Below, piece by piece: positions 2,099 through 60,500 of a DNA stretch of 64,000 nucleotides (its first letter is position 1; each line of letters opens with the position of its first letter). Source of the stretch: Rhodamnia argentea (Eukaryota > Streptophyta > Magnoliopsida > Myrtales > Myrtaceae); contig NC_063150.1 in the NCBI RefSeq assembly GCF_020921035.1, positions 4,154,001 to 4,218,000 of the forward strand, given 5' to 3'. A model generated the notes under the pieces. It was not told the DNA's origin. It saw nothing but the letters and a program-made list of their open reading frames with translations, and did not search any database. The position numbers were made by a program, and so were the translations under genes.

Positions 2099-4306
2099 AT
2101 GGCGACGGAAGAAGTAAAAGTGAAAATCGACAGATTTGAGGGGAAGGACTTTGGTTTCTGGAAGATGCAGATTGAAGACTATCTATATCGGATGAAGCCG
2201 CACTTGCCCCTATCCGGGGAGAAACCAGAGACGATGAAGCAAGCTGATTGGGAATTCTTGGATAGACGAGCGCCGGGTGTTATTCGACCGACGTTGGCTC
2301 GTAACGTCGCGTTTAACATCGTCAAAGAGAAGACAACTGCGGGTTTGATGAAAGCCCCGTCGGATATGTACGAGAAGCCCTCTGCGATCAACAAGGTCTA
2401 TTTGATGCGACATCTGTTCAATTTGAAGATGAGCGAAGGTACGTCTGTTACTAACCATATCAATGAATTCAATGTGATCGTTAGTCAATTGAGTTCAGTT
2501 GATATTGACTTTGAAGATGAGGTATGTGCTTTGATTCTATTATCCTCATTGCCTAATAGCTGGAATACTACTGCTATCGCTATTAGTAATTCCTCCGGGT
2601 CAACAAGTTTGACGTTTGATGGTATTCGAGATTTGATTTTAAGTGAGGACATCCGTAGAAGAGAATCTGGCGAATATGCATCTACTACTTTAGTAGGTGA
2701 AAATAGATGAAGAACTGATACTCGTGGTAGTAGAAGTAGTATGAACTCAAATAGACGCATCGGGTCTAGGACCGGCGGTGCTGTCTGTTGGAATTGTGGC
2801 AAGAGAGGGCATCTTAGAAGGAATTGCTTAAAACTAAAAAACGAAACGGGTAAGGGAATTATAGTTGAATCTACAGATGATGTTGCAGCTGTAGCTGATG
2901 ATTCCGATGGTGTCGATAGGGTCTTGTCTCACATCGAGCATTCGTCATTTGACGGATGGATTATGGATTTCGGTTGTTCTTTTCATGCTACACCAAACAG
3001 AAACCGGTTTGCTACTTATCGGTGCACGGATAGTAGTAAAGTGCGGTTGGGGAACAACGCTGAATGCGATGTTGTAGGTGTTGGTGATGTTAAAATCAGG
3101 ATGCATGATGGTATTGTGAGGACATTGACTGGAGTAAGGCACGTTCCAGAATTGAAAAAGAACTTAATTTCCTTTGGTGTCCTAGATTCATCTGGATGCG
3201 GGTATTCTTCACAAGGTGGAGTTCTAAAGATTGTTCGAGGTGCCATGGTGATAATGAAAGGAATCAAGCATGGAAGCCTGTATGAACTTCAAGGTGAGAC
3301 ATTGACGGGTTTCGCTCCGGAGACGTTGGTATCTGTTCGAGGGTCTAACAACCGCTCGAGGAAGACTTGGGTAATCGTGCCGAAGCACAAGTTTGATGCT
3401 GTTGTTAGGAATACGCGATTGAGAGCTTTGATCGAGATGGAGACTGGTAAGTCGATCAAGCATGTGAGAACCGACGGTAGCATGGAGTCCCGCTCGAAGC
3501 TGGTAAATAAATTCTGCATGACAAAGGGCATAGTGAAACACCGCACTAGTGCCAATAGACCACAACAGTTTGCAGAATTGATGAGCAGAACATTACTAGA
3601 GATAGTCCGTAAAATAATCTCTAGTGTTGGTATGGCTAGAAGAATTCTAGCGGATGCGCTTGGTATGGCGAGCTACCCGATGAATAGATCTCCATCGATC
3701 GCGATCGGATATCGGACTCCTGAAGAAGTGCGGTCGGGTAACGTTGCTGATTATTCTACTTTTAGAATGTTTTATTGCCCGTGTTATTATCGAGTAAGTG
3801 ATAGTAAGCTCGATGTGAGGGCAAAGTGCATATTCCATGGCTATGCACGAGGTGAGCGGGGCTATCGGTTGTGGTGCTCAAACATAAATTCACCTGTTCG
3901 CAAGAGAAAAGTTACCTTTGATGAGTCTCCGGTACTTCGGGGTAGGAGTGTTTGTGGCAGTATAAATACGGATCCGAACGGTGTTCGGCTTAAGGTGGAG
4001 TTGCAACCGGAAACTCCCGAGGTAGCGGATACTAGCGTGGTAATCGACACGGATGGTGCTTGTAGCGAGGTGGAGCCTGTAGAGTCAATGGTTGCGGTAA
4101 CTACTGATATTGACAAAGTACATGTTCGATCTCTCGACAGATATGGATGCAATAATGGTTTTGCTTTATCCGTGATTAAGGAGCTTGTATCAGAAAGTAC
4201 TTGTGGAGCAGTTAAAGGTGCATGTAGAGTTGACATTCTAATGAGGTCCATGGTTATGGCGAAGTTCAAGCGTGGCTTGGACTTGGATGATGTATGTGGC
4301 GGTTGA
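2099..4306 (+). pseudogene. Copia-type gag-protease-integrase remnant in one frame, RT lost
   Basis: A single reading frame runs from the ATG at 2099 to TGA at 4304-4306, broken only by an in-frame TGA at 2708-2710. Part one (203 residues) is the gag-like capsid region. Part two starts with a CCHC zinc knuckle (CWNCGKRGHLRRNC) and an aspartic-protease-like segment whose active site reads DFGCSFHAT where D-S/T-G is expected. Next come a shortened pre-integrase segment and a partial integrase core (HVRTDGS, then AELMSRTLLE and GYRLWCSN). The HHCC domain and the stretch with the first catalytic Asp of integrase are missing, and reverse transcriptase and almost all of RNase H are gone; only a tail resembling the RNase H end (KFKRGLDLDDV) remains. 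Every large deletion kept the frame. Confidence 0.85.
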
Positions 4307-20083: not shown

Positions 20084-23000
20084 CTACTCGCACTTGATGG
20101 AGCGGTATATGTGGCGCACAAAGAGCAAAGCCGCGCGGAAACCTACTGTTCCCAGCATGAGGAAGAATCCATAGCAGATGCACGCCATGTAGCCGAAGAA
20201 GAACGAAGTTTGCATGAAGCCGGACATGTCAGATCTTGCATAATAGTAGTAGAGGCAATAGGCATAGATAAACAAGCCAGTTGATCCACCGCAGAGAAAA
20301 GATCTGCCAACAAAGACAAATGGAATCAATAAGTAGAAGGCACACAGGTATCGCATCTTTTGCGGTAGAAAGTACACAATCCTTAAGGGTTGCGCATTGC
20401 CCCCAGAAAGTTAACTCAAAGCCATCCCTTCAACCCAGGAAAAACACTCTTTCATATTTGTTGCATTCGTATTTCACCTGAGCGGAGTGGTAACTCGGAC
20501 AAATTCAGCAAGGAAGTGACAATTAGTCAATTACCCCCCAAATCTACTAAGTTGATAGCAGCCAATTTAACATGAGCGATACTCCTAACATGCATCCTCC
20601 TATCTAGACAACAAGTGAGCAATTGATGGAACACAATACTGTAAATCCTTCACCATATGCATTTTCAATGTGTTCCACTTGAAATAGAAAAAGGTGGATC
20701 TTTTTATCTAGTTATAAAGAAGTACAAAAACTTCACCCATCTGTGAAAGAGATAAGGAATGAAAAAGAACCAGAAAAGGGTAACCAGCAAACAAAAAATC
20801 TGCAAGTGAAATTTTGCATACCTCCACCACCATTCATGGTCTTCAGCAGCGAGTTGGAAGTATGTCAATGCCACAGTGATGAAAGCAGTGACTATCACGA
20901 GAATAATAAAGACAATGAACAAGATGCTGTATATAGTGTAGATCCTATGACCCCAAACACTGGCAAAGATATAATAAAGTTCAATGTATATGGCACTGAA
21001 TGGTAAGAATCCCGCCATTGCCATCTGAGGGATCGTCCCCCTATACCATGGCAATGATGGAATCTCTCTGGGATATTTGGTGGTTCGGCAAGGAGCCTGG
21101 AACTCAGCTTTGCTGTTCTTCCCAGCGATCCCACCTAATACCAGCAAAGGCGATGTCACAAGTGTCCATATGAGGACTATCACCACGATTGTGCCAAATG
21201 GAAGAGCAGCTGTAGCTGTATAAGCAATTGCAACAGTGTTTAGGAAGCAGAACGTGAGGAAGAGAGGCCCACAGAAAAGGCATCCGGTCAACAATAAATT
21301 CCTAACCTGTTACACAAGAAGGCTGAAGTCAGTAGTAGAAAAATGAGACCTTGGGCAATCACTCTAAGGGGAATTTGCTATGACATACCCAGTTAGTTCC
21401 TTCCAGCTGACAATAAAATGAGGTAGCAGTGTAGCCAGCAATTCCAGATGTCAGTGCATAAATAACAACCAGTGCAGTAAACAGAGCCCCTCGGTTGTAA
21501 GGATAAAATACACCGACTAATGCCAGAATAAAGATGAACACAGTGCTGCCAAATGCAAGTAAATATCAATAAAGCGATGCGCTAATTGAAACATATGTAA
21601 ATTCCTGATGTACATACTAGTCTATGAAACATAAACTGCATCTGGAGAATCAAGTTACTTACAGAGTAAACAGCTGGGTACCAGAACCAAGTGCAGCTGA
21701 AAACAGAGACTTGAATCTCGGGTACCTGAATACATCTCCGTGTATGTACTTCCATCCAGTCTCCTCAGCATCTTCAGCTGATTCTTCATCATGGGCATAT
21801 CTTTTTTATATGACACAAAAGCAAATCCACTGCTAAATTTATAGACTCCATATGGCTATGTAAATAGAAGGGAAAAAAATGAAACCAAGCAATGGAGAAA
21901 AATGTGAAAAGTGATTCTTACTTGACGAAATCATTCTTGAGAACTCGCATGAGTATTGTGGCAAGAAATCCAGTCAACAGAAGCACAGTCACGCATGAAT
22001 TTATAATTGAAAACCAGTGAATCTCTAGATGATGAGGTAGAGAAGATGATTGCGAGTACTTATCCATCCTCTTCTCAAAAGGAGTCTTGGTCTCTTTCCA
22101 CTTGACCGTATACATGAATTCAACATGAGTTTCTTTATCTTCTGTAAGGTCTACAAGGGCATTAGGGTCTGTTCGGACATTGATCTCAATAACACGGTCC
22201 TTGTTGTAAAAAATGTCAAAATGAATATGCTTGTAAAGGAAGTACTTGTACTCGCTGGGATCTTTTCCTTCCTTGTCAACTTTCCCTATGAAACCCCAGA
22301 TTGGCAAGTCATCATAATACATCTGAAAGTAATAGTCCTTGATGACTGCAGATCTGAACCGTGCTACTTCTTCTTTTGAGAGTGTTTTCTTGCAAATGAC
22401 CTCAGACTCCTTATCCTTCATGAAGTCTAGCTTGTAGGGTGCACTGACAAGGCGATCCCCATTTAGTACTTCACCAAGGGCCTCCTTTTTCTCTTTCAAA
22501 TGAGCTGCAATACAAGTCAGCCTCGCAAATCAAATCACAAATCACATCAGAAAACTTTTCTAGACGAGCAGAAAACACCCAAAAGAGCAGTCACAAACCC
22601 GGAATGCAGAATGGAAGATCGAAATAGCGGTAAGTTTCACTGCATGAAAAGGATAGACTGGCATTAGCTCACACGACATCAAGAAAATTCTTCAAACTCA
22701 ATTATGCTGCCTTCAGACAAGAACTAGAAATAAGAAATGTGTATACAGCTGGACATGGAAATTCGCTGACCCGAAAAAAGGAGATTTGAATCTAAAAAAA
22801 AAACTCAATGCGTAGCAAACAACGAGAACTAAAAGATTTTCGTAGCTGATCTAGCTTTTACTTAATGTAGGTGAGAACCAATAGAGCACTGAAAAAAGCC
22901 AGGAGATGGTGAAGGCTTAAAATAACATAACCATGCTACTAGATCCAGCTCTAAAATCGGATAAACAACTGAAAGCAACTCTTCCACTGATCTAATAATG

Positions 23001-24801: not shown

Positions 24802-26028
24802 TCATGGGCCGTGGCCATCTTCGATCTGGGTGGGCCCGAGCCCGCACCCGCCGAGCTCTTCCAACGACTCTGACGCATCTCCAGCCGTCCGATCCTCGCC
24901 CTCGCCGTCGCTGCCGTCGATCAGTACACTGAGCGCGGGGCCAGGGGAGAGGGACCCAAACTGGAGGTGCGAGAACGGCAGGAACAAGCTGTGCACAACG
25001 ACCCTCGCGTTCCTGATCACCTCCGGGATCTTCAGGGGCGCGCCGTTGATCTGGACCGTCCCCCCCGCGGGCGTACCCGCGCTCGTCACCACCAGATCCT
25101 CCCCTGCCTCCATTGTCCCCAGCGTGGACCCCACTGGGAGCTTCTGGAGGTCGTCCCCCGCGAGGTACCGGTTCGGCACGATGTGGAAGCTCACGTCGCC
25201 CGCGTAGTTGTGCGGGTCGGAGAAGATGAAGTCGTCCTCCACCGCGAAGATCGTCGCGTTCTCGAGGGCGACGAGCTTGCTGAACTTCGCCTTCATCGCG
25301 AGAGCCAGGACGCCGTAACCGCCGCTCCGCAGCCGGAGCATGGCGTCCCGGAGCATCAGGGTCATGATCAGCGGAGGCGATCCGGCGAAGGAAGGAGGCG
25401 CCTCCTCGAACGACGGCCGCGGAGACGCGTCGGTGCAGGAGGACTGCGAGAGGGGGGAGACGGGGCCGTCCAGGCCGTGGACGATCATGAGGCCGTTGTC
25501 GAACAGGTCGGGCCGCGTGATCTCGGCGCCGCCGATGTATATCCTCGTGGCATTGGTGAAACGATCGGAGGCGTAGGCCACGGCGACGCAGTGGCGGGGG
25601 TTCATGGTCTCGATCTTGGTGCCAAAGGCGAGGCCCTGGAGGGTGTAGGTGGAGAAGAAGCCGGGGACGACGTGCTCGGCGAGGAGGCGGGGGAGGGGAC
25701 AGGAGGAGCAGGACTCAACGGAGGCGTCGGAGGGGGCGAATATGGTGACGGGGCCGTTCCAGCGGGAGAGGGCGGGGTACTCGGAGAGGGCCGTGACGAC
25801 GGAGATGGAGAGCTCCTGGAAGCCGAGGTGGGCGAGGATTTGCTCGAGGAGGGAGGCGGAAGAGAGGGGGAATTCGCGGAACTGGGGGGAGTGGCCGTCT
25901 GAGACTGACGGTGGTGGCGGAGGAGAGGCGGAGGGGAAGGAGAGAAAGGCGCCGCCGACGGCGGTTGTGGAGGTGGAGAAGATGACGGAGAGGGTGAGGA
26001 ATGCCAGTTGCAGAGAGGGAACGTCCAT
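24802..26028 (-). CDS. Fasciclin-like arabinogalactan protein (FLA19/20/21-type)
   Basis: An intronless frame of 408 residues. I use the ATG at 26028 (MDVPSLQLAFLTLSVIFSTS) because it starts a signal peptide; the ATG 18 codons upstream adds a polar Pro-rich stretch. A Pro/Ser-rich segment (SASPPPPPSVSDG) offers arabinogalactan-type hydroxyproline sites. FAS1 domain one spans about 50-190, with the FAPSDASV box and the GLMIVHGLDG box; a second, weaker FAS1 copy covers about 225-365 (NATIFAVEDD, then VSFHIVPNRYL and ARVVVHSL). The C-terminus is acidic and not hydrophobic, so no GPI anchor is predicted; that fits the non-anchored FLA group. Such proteins are secreted to the cell wall and affect adhesion and wall structure. 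It is very GC-rich compared with flanking DNA and pairs head-to-head with the paralogue at 26462. Confidence 0.9.
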   Translation of the reverse strand: MDVPSLQLAFLTLSVIFSTSTTAVGGAFLSFPSASPPPPPSVSDGHSPQFREFPLSSASLLEQILAHLGFQELSISVVTALSEYPALSRWNGPVTIFAPSDASVESCSSCPLPRLLAEHVVPGFFSTYTLQGLAFGTKIETMNPRHCVAVAYASDRFTNATRIYIGGAEITRPDLFDNGLMIVHGLDGPVSPLSQSSCTDASPRPSFEEAPPSFAGSPPLIMTLMLRDAMLRLRSGGYGVLALAMKAKFSKLVALENATIFAVEDDFIFSDPHNYAGDVSFHIVPNRYLAGDDLQKLPVGSTLGTMEAGEDLVVTSAGTPAGGTVQINGAPLKIPEVIRNARVVVHSLFLPFSHLQFGSLSPGPALSVLIDGSDGEGEDRTAGDASESLEELGGCGLGPTQIEDGHGP

Positions 26029-26461
26029 ATTGCGATGTGCGTGTGTTGACCCGGGGGGAGTTGGAGAAGAAGGCCTAGCCAAGTGAAGTGCGCGAGTCTG
26101 GTAAAAGTCGATTTGAGTCTTGTGAGGTAGCAGAAACTTACTCTTGTGCCGCCCAGGCGGTTATTATTCACGCGCCAGAAGGATTATGCGAATAAAGCAA
26201 TTGTGTTTGAGGTTACGGCGTCGTTTCCTGAAATTAGTACGACACCCTGAAGAGTTTCTGTTTCCCGCCAATTGAAGAGCCTGTGTACCACGCGCTCTCA
26301 CACGCTCGCTAACCAACTCGCTAACTAACTCGCCGAATCGCTAACTGTCTCTCCATCGTCTCCAACGTACTACTTCTCCATAATAAATCCTCCTGCTCAC
26401 ACTCAAAATCAGTCACCTCTCTCTCTCTCTCTCTCTCTAGTTCTCTCTCGCTTCCTTAGCT
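26029..26461. promoter_or_regulatory. Shared promoter region between two divergent FLA genes
   Basis: These 433 bases separate the two start codons of the FLA pair. They contain a CT microsatellite (26416-26438) in the leader of the plus-strand gene. No obvious TATA box for the minus gene was picked out. Because the genes face away from each other, the core promoters must lie here and may be co-regulated. Confidence 0.6.
26416..26438. repeat. (CT)n microsatellite in the FLA leader
   Basis: About eleven CT units sit 24-46 bases upstream of the plus-strand FLA start codon, followed by more CT-rich leader. Confidence 0.8.
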
Positions 26462-27634
26462 ATGGCGATCGAGTCCCTGCAGCTCTCCATCCTCCTAGTA
26501 GCCATCTTCTTCTCCCCCTCCGCAACCACAACCTCCATGGACGAAGCTCTCTCCGCCTCGCCGCCAGAGTCTCAAGCTCAGCAGCAAGAGCTCATCCCCG
26601 AGTCCCTCTCGCCGACCTCGCTCTTCGAGCCCATCCTCTCTCACCTCGGCTTCCACGACCTCGCCATGGCGGTCCCCTCGCTCACCGACTCGCCGTCGTT
26701 CACGACGTGGAACGGACCTTCCACCCTCTTCGCTCCGTCCGATTCCTCCATCGTGTCCTGCGCCTCCTGCTCCATCCCTCGCATCCTCAGCGAGCACATC
26801 GTCCCCGGCCTCTTCAGCTTCAACTACCTCCAGAAGCTCGCCTTCGGCACCAAGGTCGAGACGATGAGCTCCGGCCACTGCCTCACCATCACTTCGGGCA
26901 CTCATCAAGCAACCAACACCACCAGAATCTTCATCAACGGCGTCGAGATCTCTCATCCCGACATGTTCAGCAACGGAGTCGTCGTCGTTCACGGCCTCGA
27001 AGGCTTCATCGCGCCACTGTCTCCTTTCTCCTGCAGCGTCGAGAAGATGACGTCTCTGGCGTTTCCGTTCCTGCCGCTGGTATCCTCCTCTCCTTCGCCA
27101 CTCATGCGCCTGATGCTGCGCGACGCGGTGCTGCGACTCCGGACCAGCGGATTCGGCATTCTGGCGCTCGCCATCAAGATCAAGTACTCCGAGCTGGCGA
27201 ATCTCCAAAGCGCGACGATCTTCACCGTTGACGACATCTCGATTTTCACCGGCGCTCAGAGCTACGTCAGCAACGTGCGGTTCCACATCGTGCCGAACCG
27301 ATACCTCGCCATCGCCGACCTGGAGAGGCTTCCGGCGGGGACGCTGTTGCCGTCGCTGGAGAGAGGGCAGTATCTAGCGGTGACGACGGCAGGTGGAGCT
27401 GCGATGCTGAGGATCAACTACGTGAGGATGAAGAGCCCCGACGTGATGAAGAATCAGAAGATCGTGGTGCATTCCTTGTCCCTGCCGTTCCCTCATCTTC
27501 ACCCTGCGTCACTCCATGGTCTGGTCAACCGTCACAGTCACATCGAGGAGAACGTCGGCACAAATAACCAGAGTATGAAGGGCTCGTGCGCTGCTCTTGA
27601 GGAGCACGAAGGCTGCGAGGTGATTCCTCCATGA
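26462..27634 (+). CDS. Fasciclin-like arabinogalactan protein (FLA19/20/21-type), paralogue
   Basis: An intronless frame of 390 residues starting with a signal peptide (MAIESLQLSILLVAIFFSPS). FAS1 domain one occupies about 45-190, with FAPSDSSIVSC and GVVVVHGLEG, plus the CxxC pair shared with its neighbour (SCASCSIPR). A second FAS1-like region covers about 215-355 (SATIFTVDD, VRFHIVPNRYLA, KIVVHSLSLP). The last ~35 residues are polar and carry no GPI-anchor signal. It aligns with the minus-strand neighbour throughout, so the pair arose by an inverted duplication. Its coding bases are GC-rich, its leader holds a CT microsatellite, and the likely product is a secreted wall glycoprotein. Confidence 0.9.
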   Translation: MAIESLQLSILLVAIFFSPSATTTSMDEALSASPPESQAQQQELIPESLSPTSLFEPILSHLGFHDLAMAVPSLTDSPSFTTWNGPSTLFAPSDSSIVSCASCSIPRILSEHIVPGLFSFNYLQKLAFGTKVETMSSGHCLTITSGTHQATNTTRIFINGVEISHPDMFSNGVVVVHGLEGFIAPLSPFSCSVEKMTSLAFPFLPLVSSSPSPLMRLMLRDAVLRLRTSGFGILALAIKIKYSELANLQSATIFTVDDISIFTGAQSYVSNVRFHIVPNRYLAIADLERLPAGTLLPSLERGQYLAVTTAGGAAMLRINYVRMKSPDVMKNQKIVVHSLSLPFPHLHPASLHGLVNRHSHIEENVGTNNQSMKGSCAALEEHEGCEVIPP

Positions 27635-40080: not shown

Positions 40081-43000
40081 ATGGACCCACTCGCCACAAC
40101 GGGGTATCCGACTGTTACCCCGATCAGTCGGACTCCGTCATCATCTTCAGGAAAGAGCTCAAGCTTCGATATTCCAATGGAGAGCGAAGCAGAGGAGGCA
40201 GCGGTAACTGCCATGGCCGGGGAGACGGGCACAACGGAATCGCAGTATCGACAAGGAGAGCCCAGAACCACGTCTTCTCTCTTCCCTCTGTCCAACACCC
40301 CCGCCGCCAGCACCACCGTCGCGCCGGGCGTCCCTCAGTGGCTCTCCAACTCCAGCTTCGCCGCCGATTTCGCCGCCATAAACGAAGCCGTCTCCTCCAT
40401 CCACGACCGGCATGCTTCTCCGGATTCGGAATCGGAATCGGACGACGGAAGGGGGAGGGAAAGGGAGGGCGACTTGCCTGCTTCAGGGACTTCCTACGCC
40501 CTATTAGAGTCGTCCGAGTCCGGCGGAGATTCGAAGAGCGAGAGTACGAGGAGGAAGAAGAAGAGCAAGCGTAGGAGGAAGAGATCCAGAGAGAGAGGAG
40601 ACGATGGAGCAGGTGATTTGGGCTCGAGGAAGTCTGACGTGAGGGCATGGGCTGGTTCGGCTTTCAAGCCTGCCAAAGATTATTACTTCGATTCTCGTGG
40701 CGACCGTGATAATTTGGCTTTCGGAAGCATATACAGGTACGCATCTAGTTTGTTTCAGTTGCTATAGCTGTGGTCTTCGAAATGCGGATGAGTTTGTCTG
40801 TAGAAAGTGAACTTTCTGTAGGAGCTCAGCTCCTCCGAGTAAGTCATTCGTTTTAATCAGACTCTTATGCTTGAATCTAGGAAACTAGAATATCCCCTGT
40901 TTCATAGGGTCCTGGTGGGTAATACGTATGAAATGAATTTTGTTTCCAAGATACCAGATATGCAGCCACATCTAATTTTTGCACTCTGCAGAAGAACCGT
41001 TTGGTTTTCCTCTTGTACTTCTCGATATTTTTCGTCCATAGATTGTTTACCGATACAGACATAATGTTGCTAGGTTTTCCCTTAATGCTCTCAGTGGGTC
41101 CTTACTTCTGAAGAAATGAGGAAAGTGTCATAAATAGTGCGAAGCATTGCAATTCAATGCATCGAGCCTAAACTTATTTTTGCATACTAATTCAAACAGA
41201 ATAATCCCTTCTGTTAGTTCCATAAAGCCATCTTGAATGGTCGCACTATTTGCAGAATGGATGTGGCACGCCACAAACTTTTAAATCCTGCGAAGTCTAT
41301 CAGCATCGAGTTTAGAAGGTTGTATCAGCAGAACGGTTCAATTCTGGATGCAGATGGTGATATAGACGCACTGGATAGTAAAGTAAAATCTGCTGGACGA
41401 TATTGGTCTCCAAAGTATTCGGCCTTGGAACGTCATAGAAATTATAAGCACTTGCGTATTTTGGCACCAAGTAAATCCACTTCTGACCTCCCAGGAGATT
41501 TCATTTCGTTGGTGGAGCCTGAAGCTTCGCGGGACAGCAACAATGGTGGGTCATTTGTTGAAACTTCTATGGTCGAGGAATCTTGGGAAGATGAGGTGCT
41601 TCGAAAGACCCGGGAGTTCAACAAGAGAACTAGAGAGAATCCCTATGATGACAAAGTTTGGATAGAATTTGCTAAATTTCAAGACAAGGTAGCAAGTAGA
41701 CAGCCACAGAAAGGTGCTCGCTTGCAAACTCTAGAAAAGAAGATTGGTATACTGGAGAAAGCAGCTGAGCTTAACCCAGAAAACGAAGAACTGTTGCTTC
41801 ATCTTCTCAAAGCTTACCAGAGCAGAGATAACAGCGATGTGCTCCTGGGAAGATGGGAGAAGATACTTGTACAGCATTCAAGTAGTGCCAAGTTGTGGAG
41901 AGAGTTTTTACGAATTCTTCAGGGAGAATTTTCCAGGTTCAAGGTTTCTGAAATGAGGAAGATGTATTCACATGCAATCCAAGCTCTATCTTCAGCATGC
42001 AGCAAGCAGCATAGGCAGGTTCTCTTTTTGTTACATATAGATTTTCTCCAGCTCTGGAACTGGCTTTTATTATTCCCTGGCTGAACCTTGGGTTTTCACT
42101 GAATACAAATGGGCTAGTATTATGCAGCCGCTCTCAGTGCTCCTTATTTCAATGATTTCAATGAAGTCTTCTGACCTGATAGTTCGCAAGCACATACAAT
42201 TTGAAGCTTGAGTGTGAACTTTTTGTACATCTGCCTCGAATGAAGGAAGCCTTTAACCAAAATGAAAGCAATGACGCTGTAGTTGCAAACATCTGGGCTA
42301 TGGATGTTTTCCATGATGCAATAGATTCATCTGACGAAGATGATTAGGAACTTAATTTCAAAAATTTGGAGTATGGAGTTGTAATGAACATGTGTATGTA
42401 GATATTTAGACATAAAGACACTGAAAAACCATAAAGGGGGAAACACACCAACAGGGTTTTCTCCAAAGAATTATAAGCCTATCAACGTGTTATTTGAGTA
42501 TTATAAGGTTTATTTGTTTGGGAGATTCTTAACTATACATTTTCCAACAATTAAAAGAAGGGAAATTGGCTATCAAGGTAGGTGCTCACTAAGCAAAAAC
42601 TAAAACCTGAGAATAATGCTATTACATAAGTTGATAATTGAGAAGCTTTGATTTAGCAATTTCCTTTTTCTTTGTGGTATAAATCTAAAAATTCTTGTGA
42701 TAGGAAAGATGCGAGGAGGAAATAGAATTTGTACATGGAGAAAATCTTGCTTGTGCATGAAACTGCATATGTAAGACTATTCCTAATAAAACGATCACTG
42801 TTGTTCTCATTAACCGTGAGAACATAGATAGACCTGTTTATCTTGTTGTTTTTTATTTGCTAATGTACTTGTTTGCATCTTGGCAACATACTTTGTAATG
42901 AATCTGACGTTTGATTGGCATTCATTCGAGAGAAAGAAAACTTAAAAATGCAGGAGGAGAGAATAACAAGTGCTCGTAAGGGAGCTGCCTCTTGCACCAT

Positions 43001-51509: not shown

Positions 51510-54500
51510 TTATGCTGGTAAGGCCGATAACTCAACTTCTCGAGTACAAGGGCGATAAGCAACAAAGGTGCCATCATTTGAGAAAGAACCAGGATTGAAG
51601 CAAGTGATTCCTGTGTAACTGAATGCCTTCTGCTCGCTCTTGTCGCCTAAAACTATCTGCATTAGAAAGAAGAATAAAACGTCAGTGAGTTTACAAGGAA
51701 CATTTATTCTTTTCTTGTTCTAATGGCATTAAGTCCCTTCACATAACCTTGAACTTCTACAAGCATCTGCGCATAAGTACATCCTCAGACCCTAAATGTG
51801 CTCCCTCAATGGATAAACCTTAAATTTGTTTCTGGTTTGTGCAAATGCAGAAATTTTTCTAACAGCCATACACAGCAAACAATAATTTCAATAGAAAGTT
51901 GGGGAAAAAGAAGTTATTAGTACCGTGTGTGGAGTCGGATATAGATGGAGAGTATGATCGTAATTCCAAATTACTGGTTGCACGACAAGTGGGAGAGGGC
52001 ATAGATGACTCTGATGCGTTATCGTAGCAACTAACTGCAGCAAATGACATGATGAGCTTCATAGCAGCAGCAGTGAAGTGTGAGGTGCGCAAGCTATATC
52101 TTACGAAGCTTTAGACTGTTAGGAACATTACATGCTCAAAAGGATCACTCGTTTCTTCTGTGGAGGGAGGCATCAGACATGAGCGACGCATCCTGTATAG
52201 CAAATCCTGGCGGAAAAATACGATTTCTTGGGTGTAGAACTTGATTCTGTCAAGGAACGCAAGACAGAAACAGTGAAGACAACACTATAGGTGTTTGTAC
52301 GAGCAGACAATACCCAGTTTATATTCACAATGTCATCATGATGTTCTACATTTTCATATTTTGATTTATCCTAAGAACAACCTGCAAGGATTGCTTGCAA
52401 ATATGGCATTTGGAATGTGATTCTGAAACTCTTCTGTGATATATCTGGGCAAAGCACCTCTAGGTAAAACTGTTGAGGGACCTGAAAAAAGTGGAAGTTG
52501 ATTTTCGTAAGGCTTTAGCAAAGAGGTTCATGCACTTCAAATCAGAGCATATATGTTTATTACCTGCATCCTCAGGGCCTGGAATAAACAAAAACCGACT
52601 ATGCTCCTTCAGACGTGGATGGGATTCAATCATCTTCCCAAGCTTGCCGAACTGCACTCTACATGTACACATTACTTGTTACCATCTAGAGCAAACCATC
52701 TGTACTTAGGAAAATAGAAGGAACTTGTGTTCTCTATATAACAAGAATTGAATGCATTGCTCACCTGATGCTACTGTAGGAATGGAAAGAAAGGTTGCAG
52801 GGTCGAGAGCAAAAGTTTCCCATAAACACAAACAATGAAGGAACTACCTCCTCATTCTCAAAACCATCGAGGACTGTCTCTAGTTTTCCCATAGCCTTCT
52901 CTACGGACAAAGATGATATTCAAATCAAACCACACTGAAATGTAGAACTTCAAAAATAAATTAAAGTAGGTCTTCATAAATAACCTCTTCATTGTCTAGC
53001 CAAACATCAGACATGACGATGAACATGTCATTAACTGCTCTTTTTTCTGATTCTGCAAGTCTGAGCTGTAAAATGCGTAAAGGAAAACGATAATACAGCA
53101 GAAGTTTCATGAAATAATTGGACATTTTCACCATCTATTTAGTCCATAAAGTTTTCAGGATACAGTCTCCTCTTTGGTTAGTGTACCTCCTCCAAAAAAA
53201 TCAAGCCCCGAAAGTGCTTTCAGAGACTTATCTCGGTCTTCTAAAGGAGGAAATCCACACGTAAAGATCTTCATGACAAACCAAAAAACTCTTAAAAGCT
53301 TGAATTGATACCATAAAACACAAGATAACCTGCAAAAATAACTTCTGTAGCAGCTCATAGAAGTGATGTCAAAAGTTTATACTACTGGTGATTGATAGAT
53401 TCTACTTTTCCTTGTAAACTAGGAACCTGTTTTAAGAGAATGGTTTGGCTTATTTCATACTCGGTTAAAGTTTGTGGCTTTCTCATATTATGGAAAAATA
53501 GAAGACATATGTTTACTGGTTGAAATGACAGACAAGATGAAGGAATAGAATTCTGAATGTAGCATATCATGATCTCAATCTGTCAGACATTTCATCCATG
53601 TGTTCCGATAATTCATGCTGCGCATCTATCCATTGAAAGAAGGAATTCTGATAGATAAAATCCAGTAGTTAGAGCTATCTGAATAGAAGCGTGCATCTTT
53701 CATGTTTAGGCAATTGTATGTACTTTGCCAATTGAATTAAAACTGTCAAGACGATTACAATGAGAGTTGATTTGAAAAAATTTATTTCCATAGATTTTAG
53801 CCAGAGGCTGCTAAGACAGAGTAATAGAACCCTCTGAGCAGAAATAAATCATGCAAGCTTACGAGAAAGGAAAATGCATGACCGCAAACAAATTAAGAAG
53901 CTATGTGTGTAGTAGAATCATTTGTCTTAGACAACTGCAAAAAGCACGTGAGTTCCATTGCCACTTCATCTTATGGGAATACCACTGTCCGTCTATGAAT
54001 TAGAAGTGATCCTGATGTCTTGTTAAGAATCATCAGCTAAAACTCATTTACTGCATTTGGTAACTTTTTGGTATTCTTTTTCCATAACAAAGCAAAACAA
54101 TTATAATTCAACTTTTTCCCAAGTTAAACAATACAAATGTCAATTTGATTGCTTCATTTCTTACGGTTTACCCTGCAAAATGTCTCCCTGTTAGTCTGTG
54201 TATGATTGAAATAACCAACAAAAAAGACACCCTTGTCAGTTGCAATACATACTGTATCAAGACGTAGTAAAAGCAAAAATAATTTAAAGGAGAACAATGG
54301 GGCAGTTAGTGAAAAATCTAGCAAGATTCCAATACAGAAGCCACAACTCACCTTAAAAATCCCCTCCAGCAGCATCTGACCTTCTGCTACAACTATGGTA
54401 TTCTCAGTAAAGAAACCTGTCGTTATCTTGTACTGCTTGTCAAAGAAAACAACAACACGGGACTTCTCTTTGTAGTCGAATAAACTTAACCTTAATCACA

Positions 54501-56333
54501 AGTACTTAAGAGTCTTTGAAGGTAAGAGAAAAAAATTATGTGCTTATCCCCTGAACCATGGCTATCTAACCACATTGGACTATTGTTCAGCTCATTTAAA
54601 AGGAGATCCAATTAGTTATTTCTACATCCTTTCACCCCCTCCTCCCAACTTTGCAAGACCTATTTCAAGTGATTTTTGACAAATCCATGCAAAGAAAAGC
54701 CTCTATCAAAAGCAGTTGCAACTGTGCACCTGTCTCTATATGGTAGGCTGACTGGGAAGTCAGAGTTCGCAGATCTTATGACAAGGTAAAAAGAATTACC
54801 AAACCTGCTAATTAATCTAAGCACTACTTAAGGTGCCAGAAAAAAAAAAAAAAGAGAGTTGAAATGAGAAAGCAAGGAGAATTTAATGTATGAGAAGCCA
54901 ACTGAACAAACTTAAGTGGCAAAAAGAAACATCATATGAAAAGGATATTGCATCGGACAAATTGATCTCTACAGAGGCAGTGAGGTCTTCCAAGTAGAAA
55001 TGGCCATCCTCCAACTGAGAAATCACACCCATTACCCATCTCCGTCCAGTTTGCCCCACAAGAGATTGGATTGGAGATATCTGTCAATATTATTCACAAG
55101 CATGACAGAACTGGAGTCAATTCCAATGATGAAAGGTTTACTGCTTTTTCCTTAGAGACCCACATTAGGCAGGTGCTAACAATACACCGACAGCATTAGG
55201 TATGGTTGGGATGACCATTGACTTACCTCGCAACTTCCAAAATCGGTTGTGTCAGTTTCAAACGCAGGCTTCGCGAAATGCTGATCACGAGAGAGTCTCT
55301 GATAGAGCAGCAGAAACCTATCCTTATACAGCTTCGCTTTCGCAGAGGCCTCACCATGAATGGGCAGGCTTCCAGTGTGCCTACCAGTGACAAAACTTCA
55401 ATAAGCACCACATTTTCAAATGCCTCATTTGGCCGAAAGAAACTTATAGCTGCCACGAGAGGAGTCCTTGTCCCCAAATCCAACGAACTAAATTACTGAT
55501 TCAGACTTGTCCTCTCTGTGCAGAACGTGCAAAAGAGAATCAGTTAGTTCAAAAAGGGATTCAGAAATCATACTTTGCATCAAGAATCTAATTCAGAGTC
55601 CTTTAGGGACTCCATCGGAAATTTTTTCAAAGATGAACATATGCAGGAAACGAAGATTTGACCATTAGGCACCTGTCTTGGGCCTACAAGAAGATATTTG
55701 AAACAGCAGAAATGCTTTACATCGACTCGAAGCACCATTGTTTGGAAGATCATTTCAGACCGTTGAGAGAGCTATAATCGATTCTAAGTGTCTCTGATTT
55801 CTTAAATGTCGAAGCTACATTAAATAAGGAGCCAAAATAGAGGACATTAAGAGACGAAAGCAAATAATTACTCATAAAAAATCTTCTTGACTGGATCATA
55901 ATGAAACTTGGGAACCAAGAAGGCGTCGATCACGCGAAATGCAGATCCCCGGCCATCGCAAGCTGCATTAGGGCTTTCCTCAACCGCGGCTTCTGCTTCC
56001 AGTAAAAGATTCACCACCCGATTCACTGGATCTTTGTCGATTATCGAAGATTTCACTGCGAACAGCGTTCCATACGCACCGCATCGATTTGATTAAACAA
56101 CAGCAATTAAAGCACCTTATAGATCGATCTAGCAAACTTTTTCCTGCAAAGAGGGGACGAGAAATGGAAGGGCGGAGGTTACGAGATTCGTGCTCGAGCT
56201 GATCGAGGAGGAGGTCGAGGGCGTCGTCCTCGGCGCCGGAGAAGCGGGAGGCGAAGGAGATGACGGCGTCGAGGGCGTCCACTTTGAGAGTGTAACCTCT
56301 CATCTTGAACTTCCTCTGCACCTTCTTCTTCAT
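51510..56333 (-). CDS. DPB2: DNA polymerase epsilon subunit 2 (B subunit)
   Basis: Thirteen exons (56333-56183, 56055-55872, 55380-55227, 55080-54949, 54429-54352, 53268-53164, 53065-52985, 52898-52765, 52658-52564, 52481-52382, 52246-52132, 52034-51924, 51656-51510) give 528 residues, the normal plant length. The N-terminal helical domain starts MKKKVQRKFKMRGYTLKVDA; an ATG four codons upstream is also possible. An OB-fold segment includes QTGRRWVMGVISQLEDGHFY and FFTENTIVVAEGQM. The inactive phosphoesterase domain includes DMFIVMSDVWLDNEE, PSLFVFMGNFCSRPCN, FLFIPGPEDAG and ITCFNPGSFSNDGTF. As the B subunit it holds the leading-strand replicase together, acting in S phase and in epigenetic inheritance. 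Two introns show U12-type signals and two E2F-like sites lie just upstream, matching its replication role. Confidence 0.95.
53066..53163 (-). other. U12-type GT-AG intron of DPB2
   Basis: This 98-base intron starts GTATCCTG (U12 consensus RTATCCTT) and has TTCCTTTAC (U12 branch consensus TTCCTTRAC) about 12 bases before the terminal CAG. Both signals match at all but one position. Splicing here joins KEET to LRLAESE in frame. Confidence 0.65.
54430..54948 (-). other. U12-type AT-AC intron of DPB2
   Basis: This 519-base intron starts ATATCCTTTT, the exact AT-AC U12 donor consensus. It ends AAGCAGTAC, with TTCTTTGAC as branch site about 10 bases from the end. Joining at AT...AC gives INLSDA-KITTGFF, matching the family; reading it as a U2 intron needs a weak GC donor. 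Confidence 0.85.
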
Positions 56334-56344
56334 AGCCACACTCA

Positions 56345-56366
56345 CTCTCTCTCTCTCTCTCTCTCT
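56345..56366. repeat. (CT)n microsatellite in the DPB2 leader
   Basis: About eleven CT units (GA on the coding strand) end only a dozen bases before the DPB2 start codon. Confidence 0.8.
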
Positions 56367-56436
56367 GGGGACGAGTGGGAATGAGCATTAGCGACCGAAT
56401 TTTCCACCGTCATTACAATTCAGAAGCTTTTGTCAT

Positions 56437-56449
56437 TTTGGCGGGAAAA
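56437..56449 (-). promoter_or_regulatory. E2F-like site upstream of DPB2, proximal
   Basis: TTTGGCGGGAAAA fits the E2F/DP consensus TTTSSCGS. It lies about 105 bases before the DPB2 start codon and 32 bases from a second identical core. E2F sites are the classic G1/S switch of plant replication genes. Confidence 0.75.
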
Positions 56450-56468
56450 TCTGCTTCTCTCAATTGGA

Positions 56469-56479
56469 TTTGGCGGGAA
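56469..56479 (-). promoter_or_regulatory. E2F-like site upstream of DPB2, distal
   Basis: TTTGGCGGGAA repeats the core of the proximal site in the same orientation. The pair sits about three helical turns apart. Confidence 0.75.
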
Positions 56480-57559
56480 CTTTAGGGCTCAGCCTCGCAG
56501 CTTGGAGATTCTCAGGCAATAGTCGCGTTTGAAACTCAAAACGCCGTCGCATGCCGTCACAGCACCGCCCCCGTTTCTCCTTTCACTTTCATCTTCTTCT
56601 GCGTGACAGTATCTCCGCCTCCATTACGTTTATAATTAGTCAATAAACGAAATAACGATTACTTAGGCTTATTTTATTTCGCTAAAAATAAATAATTAAT
56701 AAATATTTTCTTAAAAATAATTATTTATACCGCTTGAAGTAATTAGCCAATGTACGATAAAAAAAGTTATCCAATGAAAATATTTTCATTATCAATAACA
56801 ATTTGAGCTTAAACATTTTCATGGGCGATTAAAATATTTTTCTTTAATTTATTTTTGTGACCCATTATAGGAAAATATTTTCTAAATCGTATATCTTTCG
56901 CAAAGTAAACAAAGCTTTAAAAGTTTAAATTTTTGCCTAATTCCCTGCATAAAGTGTGATTTACTCACTTTTTCGCAATAAATTTCCACTCCATCAATCA
57001 TATTGAAGGATAGACATTTATATAGTTTGCAACAATTGTTAGTAATAGTCTATTTGGTTTAGTATTCTAAAAGATATCGATACCATATTTTTCATATATT
57101 CACCGAGAACTCGTGCACGAATAAGTGTACGATACAAAATGAATTTTGTACGGTAACTTTATACGTAAGTGCTAATTGGATCATTCTATAGACGTTTGAT
57201 GTAGTGCAAAAACACCTAATTTAGAATATTTAGGATTTGATTGCATTTTTCGAACGTTGAATTTTGAGTGCACATTGAATAAAACGTTGAAGACTTATGG
57301 CGTAATTTTTCCTTTCCAAAAACATACTGATAAATAAATTATTTCGTCGATATTGGAAAACTTAAAAAGAAAACAAAAAGAAAAAGCTTAGAGCGTCGAG
57401 AAATAAAGATACTATTTATCTTTCAGTAAGACAAATTTCAATAATAAGGCTTAAGAGTTCATCCTAGTGAAATATATCCGTAATGCTTGTAGTAAGATAA
57501 ACAAGCAGTCAAGCCCAAACCAACATTACGACAGAAGCACACGAAATGACAAGAAAGTC
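56480..57559. other. AT-rich spacer between DPB2 promoter and GAD 3' end
   Basis: After the DPB2 promoter the sequence is strongly AT-rich, with no gene or clear repeat. The part just before 57560 is the 3' flank of the minus-strand glutamate decarboxylase gene. Confidence 0.5.
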
Positions 57560-60500
57560 CTAGCAAGCCCCAGTTCTCCTACCATCCACCAGCCTCTTCC
57601 AATGGGTTGTGATTTCCCTCTGAGTTTGCTCCACGCTCTTCTTCACCCGCTTTTCACTCCCCTCCCCACCTCGCGCCCCGCCGTCGACGGCAGCTGTCAT
57701 GTGAGCCGCCTTGATTGTGCCGCGGCTCGGCTTCGCGTCCAGATGCATCACGACCTTCTCGATGTCCCCCGCAAGCCTCTCAGCGAGGCTCCTGCTGAAG
57801 TCCTCCCGGATCACGACACGGAGGACGGCCACGTGCTCTGCGTCGGGCGGCATCGTGTACGCCGGCACGATCCATCCGAACCTCCTCAACTCCTCAGATA
57901 TGTCGAATACCGTGTACCGGCTGCTATCCTTGAGGGAAAAGGCGACGAGCGGCACGCCATCTTCCTTCGACAGTATGTTGAACCGGCCCGTCTGTTCGAT
58001 CTCCTCTCGCAGTGCACGAGCATTCGCCATGCAGTTCTGAATGATGTTTTTGTATCCCTTGCAGATGCAGAGTCGAGACATTTCAAAATTCAAGTCAAAA
58101 CAGACAGAAAAAGATTCTATAACATGTTAAAGTGGCCAACTAGAACTCCACAGCTTTCAAAAGCAGCCAACTGATCCCTATGACTGACTTGAATGCTTAA
58201 TAACTCTGCCAGTGCTACTGTCCAATATAGAACTAAGGTCGATCGTAGGAAGTTGCCACTTTTCATCGGTTAACGGCCACCATACTTCTAGTTTTGCCGA
58301 AGGTGTACGGATTCGCACAAGGAGACAATCGCGCACAACTCAAGTAGCAAGTCCGAAACCTATGTCAAGTAATTTCAGCTGAAGTCATTTTCCATGGCTA
58401 ACCAAGTACTAATCAATTTGTCCCTCCGCTCTCGTCGATGGTTCATACTGGTTTTGATGGTGATTGCAGTTCAATGCTTCATGACAGTGTTCTGATTGAA
58501 ATTTTCACAGCAAACATTTCCATATTCAAGTACAAAATTTGGAGCATAAAAAATGAAGATCATGCAAACTCACCTCCAAACCCAGCCTTATAAACTGATA
58601 ATATTGAGCTATAATTTGACTCGAACCTGCCAGAATAACCAAGTAGAAAGATCAATAGGATAGCCACAAATAAACACAAGACAGCAAGTCACCACCTCAT
58701 CATGATTGCATACATATAGAGAGAGACAATTGGTAAAAGGACATCTTCCATTATTAGAGATCACTAGGAAAGAGCAAAATTTGTATTAAGACAAGTTCTA
58801 TTATAGGTTAAGTTCTTGGTATTACCTTTAGAAAAGTTGAGCGTGAAAGTGGGTTGATCAGATCCGAGGTAATTAATGTGAAAGATGAGTTCCTCGGGCA
58901 ACTCTTCTTTGCTCCTCCAAATAACCCATCCAACACCGGCATAAACAAGGCCATACTTGTGACCGCTAACGTTAATGCTCTTAACTAGTGGTAGACGGAA
59001 ATCCCATTGGAGATGCGGGTACAAAAACGGGGCTATGAACCCTCCACTTGCAGCATCAACATGAATGGGAGTGTCCCATCCGGTTTCCTTGTTCTTCTTA
59101 GTAAGGAGCTCATTAAGGAGTTTCACATCCTCGAATTCTCCATTTAAGGTTGAACCAAGTATCGCGGCAACACATATCGTATTTTCGTCCACCATCTCGA
59201 CAGCTTTCACTGGGTCCATCACATAATAACCCTCCTTCAATTTCACTTCCTTCAGCTCAACCTCAAAGTACCTAGCGAACTTCTCCCAGCAAACCTGGTT
59301 TGAACCAACAGACCAACAGTTATGAAATACAAAAGAAGTAGCTTAAGCATCCCACAAACAACACCTAAATTGCAGCGGACATTACATAGGTATACTCATC
59401 AGAATGTTGGTCTCACTGTACATGATGGAATAACATAATTACGCACATCCACATTGTGATCCGCCACTCGACCACTTAAAATATTCATGTCTAGTCTACT
59501 TGCAATGTCTACAAGATTAACAAGACCTTCAACTTATCGGTGAAAAAGGTCCCTGATATCAAACAACTTAGATCAGACTGCAAATTGAATTAACTGTATC
59601 ACCAAATCAAATACTTAAGATGTATGAACTCAGTTCTTAGAAAGATACTGTGTGGACAAGATGACATTCAATTTAAGAACGTCTACCTCAAACATACATA
59701 AAAAGCAATTTTCACAGGGAGAATGTGCAGCATACCTGCACATTAGCTCCAGTAACTATATTCGGCTTGTCATAGGGTTTTCCTTCGGACTGTCTCTTTT
59801 TCTGCCACTTCCTCTTCATTGCCAACCCTGCCAACATTATAGCCTCTGACGACCCCACTGTCCCGACACCGATTGCGGTCTCGTCATCTCCCACAGGAGC
59901 ATTGAAAAGGTGGGCTATCATGTTAACGCACCGATTCTGCAAAATCGGTCGGACACAACTGAATCTTTGCCGGAACAATAAAAAGACTAAGATCGACAAA
60001 ATTACTCTTACCCTCAATACTGAATAACAAATTATGTAGTTTCATCAGAGGCATAAAGAGTTAATCAAGTCAAGACTCTGAATTCCAAAGGATGCAAAAT
60101 TTTAGAAGACTCTGAATTCCAAAGTATATGCCAAAACAAAAGTATAATAAAGAACTATCCAGCCCTCCAATATCTTCAATCCAGCTTCGGACAAATCAAC
60201 TTCCTGTTTCTAAGTAATCACATCTCCTTTCTCTGTTGTTATCATACTAACAAACCCCTAACTAAGAAGCAGCTCACACGCAGATACATTTAGAAAATGG
60301 GAAAGAGGGCACAGAACCTGGAGCTCTGTTGTAACAGGGTATTCGTCCATATCGACATAGTTCTTGTTGATCGAAGCCATGATCAGCTTATCGCACTCCG
60401 GCTCCATCCACGTAGTCACGAAAGAAGCCAAGTTCAGTCTCGGATTCCCATCCAACATCAGTTCATCGTTTATTATCTGGTAAGCCGCTTCTTTCGGTAT

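Follow-up and report, generated by a model that had tools for sequence, protein, structure and literature searches.

The DPB2 gene and its surroundings

The gene of main interest in the window, the whole stretch of 64,000 nucleotides that was analysed, lies on the minus strand (56333-51510), where splicing by hand yields 13 exons and 12 introns encoding 527 amino acids without any internal stop (Table 1). Its product matches the subunit B domain DNA_pol_E_B of Pfam (PF04042; E 1.2e-50), and its residues 5-525 align with DNA polymerase epsilon subunit 2, 5vbn_A (E 1.6e-90), which we take to be the human protein; a 689-residue subunit B, presumably that of yeast, is a weaker alignment partner. 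The N-terminal domain Dpoe2NT (E 0.00013) reaches 22.7 bits, which is just under the cut-off of 24. Judged from these matches, the gene is DPB2, as it had been named in the earlier note. No relatives of DPB2 were found among the viral contigs or the prokaryote genome contigs searched, as expected.

Table 1 Features of the DPB2 locus, in positions of the window
Feature	Position	Strand	Basis or remark
DPB2/POLE2 (DNA polymerase epsilon subunit 2), coding part	51510..56333	-	Splicing, Pfam, 5vbn_A match
DPB2 exons 1-4	56333-56183, 56055-55872, 55380-55227, 55080-54949	-	Hand splicing
DPB2 exons 5-8	54429-54352, 53268-53164, 53065-52985, 52895-52765	-	Hand splicing
DPB2 exons 9-13	52658-52564, 52481-52382, 52246-52132, 52034-51924, 51656-51510	-	Hand splicing
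Intron 4, probable U12-type AT-AC, 519 nt, phase 0	54430..54948	-	Donor, branch, junction rank 1/47
Branch-site-like TTCTTTGAC, intron 4	54439..54447	-	Motif match
Intron 5, U2-type GT-AG, 1083 nt, between introns 4 and 6	53269..54351	-	Donor AAG|GTGAGT
Intron 6, probable U12-type GT-AG, 98 nt, phase 0	53066..53163	-	Donor, branch, junction rank 1/11
Branch-site-like TTCCTTTAC, intron 6	53077..53085	-	Motif match
Two E2F-like TTCCCGCC sites, at 56479 and 56447	56440..56479	-	Starts 146 and 114 bases upstream of start codon

Concerning the surroundings, two open reading frames upstream of DPB2 and on the same strand (57560-59246) match pyridoxal-dependent decarboxylase and are presumably glutamate decarboxylase-like. 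Also on the minus strand, two EMP70-matching open reading frames (20704-22499) probably belong, as exons, to a single membrane protein gene. The plus strand carries an open reading frame encoding an NRDE-2 domain (41233-42084; Pfam E 6.4e-32), probably part of a larger gene, and a retroelement fragment (2741-4306), in which a single open reading frame combines zinc knuckle, Pol beta-barrel and retroviral SH3-like domains. Two divergent open reading frames with fasciclin domains occupy a GC-rich stretch at 24802-27634 (0.59 and 0.55, the other 2-kb stretches having 0.35-0.47). A search against Rfam gave no match at gathering score within the window.

Motifs, junctions and class of introns 4 and 6

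The DPB2 introns were compared with the U12 donor RTATCCTT and with the branch motif TTCCTTRAY, the latter sought 8-20 nt from the 3' end; for membership in the U12 type, a branch lying some 10-15 nt upstream of the 3' end and AT-AC or GT-AG termini were considered. Among the 12 introns, only introns 4 and 6 match U12 at both donor and branch. Intron 4 (54948-54430) begins with ATATCCTTTT and ends with TTCTTTGAC-AAGCAGTAC; its donor ATATCCTT has no mismatch, and its branch, located 10 nt from the 3' end, has one. Intron 6 (53163-53066) begins with GTATCCTG and ends with TTCCTTTAC-GCATTTTACAG, with one mismatch in the donor (G at +8) and one in the branch (T for the purine before the branch A), the latter being 12 nt from the 3' end. 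The remaining ten introns exhibit 2-5 mismatches in the donor and 3-5 in the branch. The earlier note had read both introns at exactly these coordinates and with these motifs; its word "perfect" holds for the donor of intron 4, but not for the donor of intron 6 or for either of the branch sites, each being one mismatch away.

Scoring with U12 matrices, which the earlier note had proposed as a check, points in the same direction, all values being based on approximate, rounded U12 and U2 matrices rather than on published tables. The donor log-ratio of U12 over U2 is +23.0 for intron 4 and +9.3 for intron 6; elsewhere in the gene, intron 1 reaches +4.0 and none of the other nine exceeds -10.7, the value of intron 5, the U2-type intron between the two, being -24.5. 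The branch scores are 10.2 for intron 4 and 11.4 for intron 6, those of the other ten introns being -0.7 or lower; with the same approximate matrices, 13 of the 6,381 AC ends of the window reach the score of intron 4, and 5 of its 7,875 AG ends reach the score of intron 6, the introns' own ends included.

The junctions themselves were assessed for introns 4-7 by aligning to POLE2 the products of all in-frame, stop-free GT-AG, GC-AG and AT-AC joins within 45 bases. Among the 11 candidates for intron 6, the GT-AG join 53163-53066 comes first (775, the next one scoring 757), and the join chosen for intron 7 leads a field of 18. Of the 47 in-frame candidates for intron 4, the AT-AC join 54948-54430 obtains the highest score (775), closely followed by two further AT-AC joins, 54937-54419 (773) and 54937-54422 (770), both using the donor ATATGATG; within the best 8 of the 47 joins, the donor ATATCCTT is found in the top join and in one scoring 763 (end 54439). 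The alignment thus fixes intron 6 well and leaves intron 4 with a small number of closely scoring joins, the choice among them being made by the U12 donor and the donor scores. It should be noted that the GT-AG join chosen for intron 5 was only third of 38 (775 versus 777 and 776 for two GC-AG candidates) and was kept because of its strong donor. The acceptor of this intron, CATGAAG (53275-53268, minus strand), is unusual, and the protein alignment leaves more than one candidate for its junction.

One of the competing joins would place intron 4 in the U2 type, as a GC-AG intron (54951-54433) with each end displaced by 3 nt, its U12 appearance being due to chance. Such a join is in frame, preserves the protein length and scores 769 against 775. 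It would, however, give Asp-Tyr-Lys instead of Asp-Ala-Lys, thus placing Tyr where POLE2 5vbn_A has Ala in the alignment, and its donor GAT|GCAATA obtains -2.2 bits as U2, against 14.2 for the AT donor as U12 (approximate matrices), so that this assignment is very hard to credit. The U2-type alternative for intron 6 would leave the GT-AG junction in place and treat the U12-like motifs as chance or as a relic of an ongoing U12-to-U2 conversion, the intron being perhaps accepted by either spliceosome. It is consistent with the GT-AG termini, with a donor U2 score that is slightly positive (0.6 bits, approximate matrices), with a 3' end rich in pyrimidines (0.77 over 22 bases) and with donor and branch being each one off the U12 consensus. 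U2 donors disfavour T at -1 and C at +5, both of which are present in intron 6; these bases, the U12-leaning donor log-ratio of the approximate matrices and the rarity of equally good branch scores at AG ends make the U2 assignment improbable, albeit less so than for intron 4. The T preceding the donor of intron 6 is, moreover, described as enriched in GT-AG U12 introns (PMC7367187, partial text).

With regard to chance, motif counts were taken over the two strands of the window and include the sites of introns 4 and 6 themselves. The exact RTATCCTT is present at 3 of 10,336 AT sites, a donor with at most one mismatch at 31 of 6,384 GT sites, and a branch with at most one mismatch, 8-20 nt upstream, at 61 of 7,879 AG ends and 62 of 6,383 AC ends. 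When multiplied under the assumption of independence, these frequencies amount to about 3e-6 for AT-AC junctions of the intron 4 kind and 4e-5 for GT-AG junctions of the intron 6 kind. With one mismatch allowed in each motif, the minus strand has 12 donor-branch pairs, compared with a mean of 7.7 in its Markov resamplings (n=40), and the plus strand has 14; motif pairs alone are thus not clearly above chance with one mismatch per site. The case for U12 introns is made by the motifs falling on junctions supported by the protein.

The matrix scan also yielded competing pairs. The donor of intron 4 scores better with the branch of intron 6 than with its own (54948 with 53068, 25.7 against 24.4), and the donor of intron 6 does so with a more distant end (53163 with 52240, 23.2 against 21.3), a pairing that would omit exons 7-10. 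Elsewhere, the scan listed the minus-strand pairs 9834-7881 and 46640-46458 and, for the plus strand, three pairs that share the end 29171. Two further DPB2 introns were considered and rejected. Intron 10 has a perfect branch motif, TTCCTTGAC (52257-52249, minus strand), which abuts its AG and is therefore too close to the 3' end, and its donor GTTGTTCT has five mismatches; the motif is likely a product of chance. Intron 1, despite its U12-leaning donor, has a branch score of -10.6 and is not counted as U12, since it is without a branch site.

The view of the earlier note that DPB2 harbours two U12-type introns is thus borne out by the motifs, the matrix scores and the POLE2-aligned junctions, and the pair is confirmed as real and of a well-known kind. 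On the strength of these sequence features, introns 4 and 6 are very probably ordinary minor introns of the AT-AC and GT-AG subtypes, flanking a U2-type intron, and no dedicated regulatory role is needed to account for them.

Comparison with known minor introns

Introns 4 and 6 resemble known U12-type introns of the AT-AC and GT-AG subtypes in their donor, branch, branch-to-end distance and termini. They are unlike the usual ones in that both are in phase 0, which is disfavoured for U12 introns, with an average of about 22% (PMC10639083, partial text); they are, furthermore, known here from sequence alone. AT-AC introns represent 13-26% of the U12 introns in four plants (PMC7367187, partial text).

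The earlier note had considered two U12 introns in one gene to be rarer still. Such pairs are indeed uncommon, but they are to be expected, given that U12 introns were found clustered within genes in 21 of the 21 genomes tested (PMC7367187, partial text). This clustering, together with the human and mouse counts—in each of the two species, 50 genes with two minor introns and 3 with three (PMC6717393, partial text)—weakens the claim that two per gene is special. The SCN genes likewise have two U12 introns in one gene; unlike DPB2, they belong to a different gene family, which was expanded by duplication.

A further likeness concerns mouse Pole2, one of the genes whose U12 introns are listed as affected in Zrsr1/2 mutants (PMC7312986, partial text): it belongs to the same gene family and is named for a U12 intron affected in minor-splicing mutants, the likeness being at the level of the gene family. 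How well U12 positions are conserved between plants and animals is disputed, with 20 shared positions in one study (PMC2426677) versus 8 of 93 in another (PMC7367187; both partial texts). In the literature searched, mainly openly accessible papers in their main texts, no statement was found on a U12 intron in plant DPB2 or on the same introns in Arabidopsis DPB2 (At5g22110); a review that deals with alternative splicing and DNA damage, of which part of the text was available, marks At5g22110 with a plus sign in one of its tables. The gene described here would add a DPB2 with two likely minor introns to the replication genes dependent on the minor spliceosome.

Retention, exon skipping and the proposed brake

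The removal of U12-type introns requires U11/U12/U4atac/U6atac. Provided that both U12 sites are actually used and that introns 4 and 6 are removed by the minor spliceosome, the full-length DPB2 mRNA would need this spliceosome for two introns and the major one for ten; a dependence on both, and on the minor spliceosome in particular, would follow from the class of the introns. If retained, intron 4 would add 21 intron codons before a stop, and intron 6 only two (Val-Ser). Retention of either one therefore brings an early stop, with a loss of DPB2 output to be expected, so that a shortage of the minor spliceosome should lower this output passively; a passive fall when minor splicing fails is likely. 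In vertebrate cells, skipping products with early stops escaped decay (PMC8034651, partial text), and the loss of DPB2 output on mis-splicing is therefore not certain.

The earlier note went further, proposing the intron pair as a cell-cycle brake in which the supply of the minor spliceosome limits DPB2, coupled with transcription under E2F. Concerning the latter, two TTCCCGCC sites do precede DPB2, at 56479 and 56447; we take them to be E2F-like. The motif occurs four times in the window on both strands; the more general WTTSSCSS occurs 46 times (both strands), three of them in 56300-57500, within 40 bases and all part of the two TTCCCGCC sites.

Apart from these sites and the stops met on retention, several published observations favour such a brake: in human cells, the supply of U6atac sets a limit on how far minor-intron genes are expressed (PMC3728624), Arabidopsis replication is harmed by excess DPB2 (PMC6801657), U12 introns are said to be frequent among DNA replication and repair genes (PMC3422263), and minor splicing in plants is argued to associate with the undifferentiated state (PMC10639083; all four in partial text). 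The last source, as far as its available text goes, however, also reports from a survey of more than 3,000 genomes results that do not support cell-cycle regulation as the reason for minor introns, and that a gene has two such introns does not in itself speak for selection for control. The brake is therefore regarded as unlikely, the preferred reading remaining that of two ordinary minor introns. The loss of DPB2 arrests Arabidopsis embryos (PMC6801657, partial text), and plant minor-spliceosome mutants show growth defects (PMC4892727; PMC3422263, partial texts); whether minor-spliceosome defects and stalled cell division are connected in plants could be tested on this gene, the general view being unchanged.

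Introns 4 and 6 also frame a potential cassette. Introns 3-7 are all in phase 0, and exons 4-7 therefore each keep the frame when skipped. Exons 5 and 6 (78 and 105 nt) being frame-preserving, a direct AT-AG join of the intron 4 donor with the intron 6 acceptor at 53066 would shorten the protein by 61 residues and introduce no stop. That a splice made by the minor spliceosome only could in this way produce a shorter DPB2, perhaps with altered partner binding, is conceivable from the sequence, albeit with a very small probability. The better score of the intron 4 donor with the branch of intron 6, mentioned above, was obtained for the AC end at 53068, which would shift the frame.
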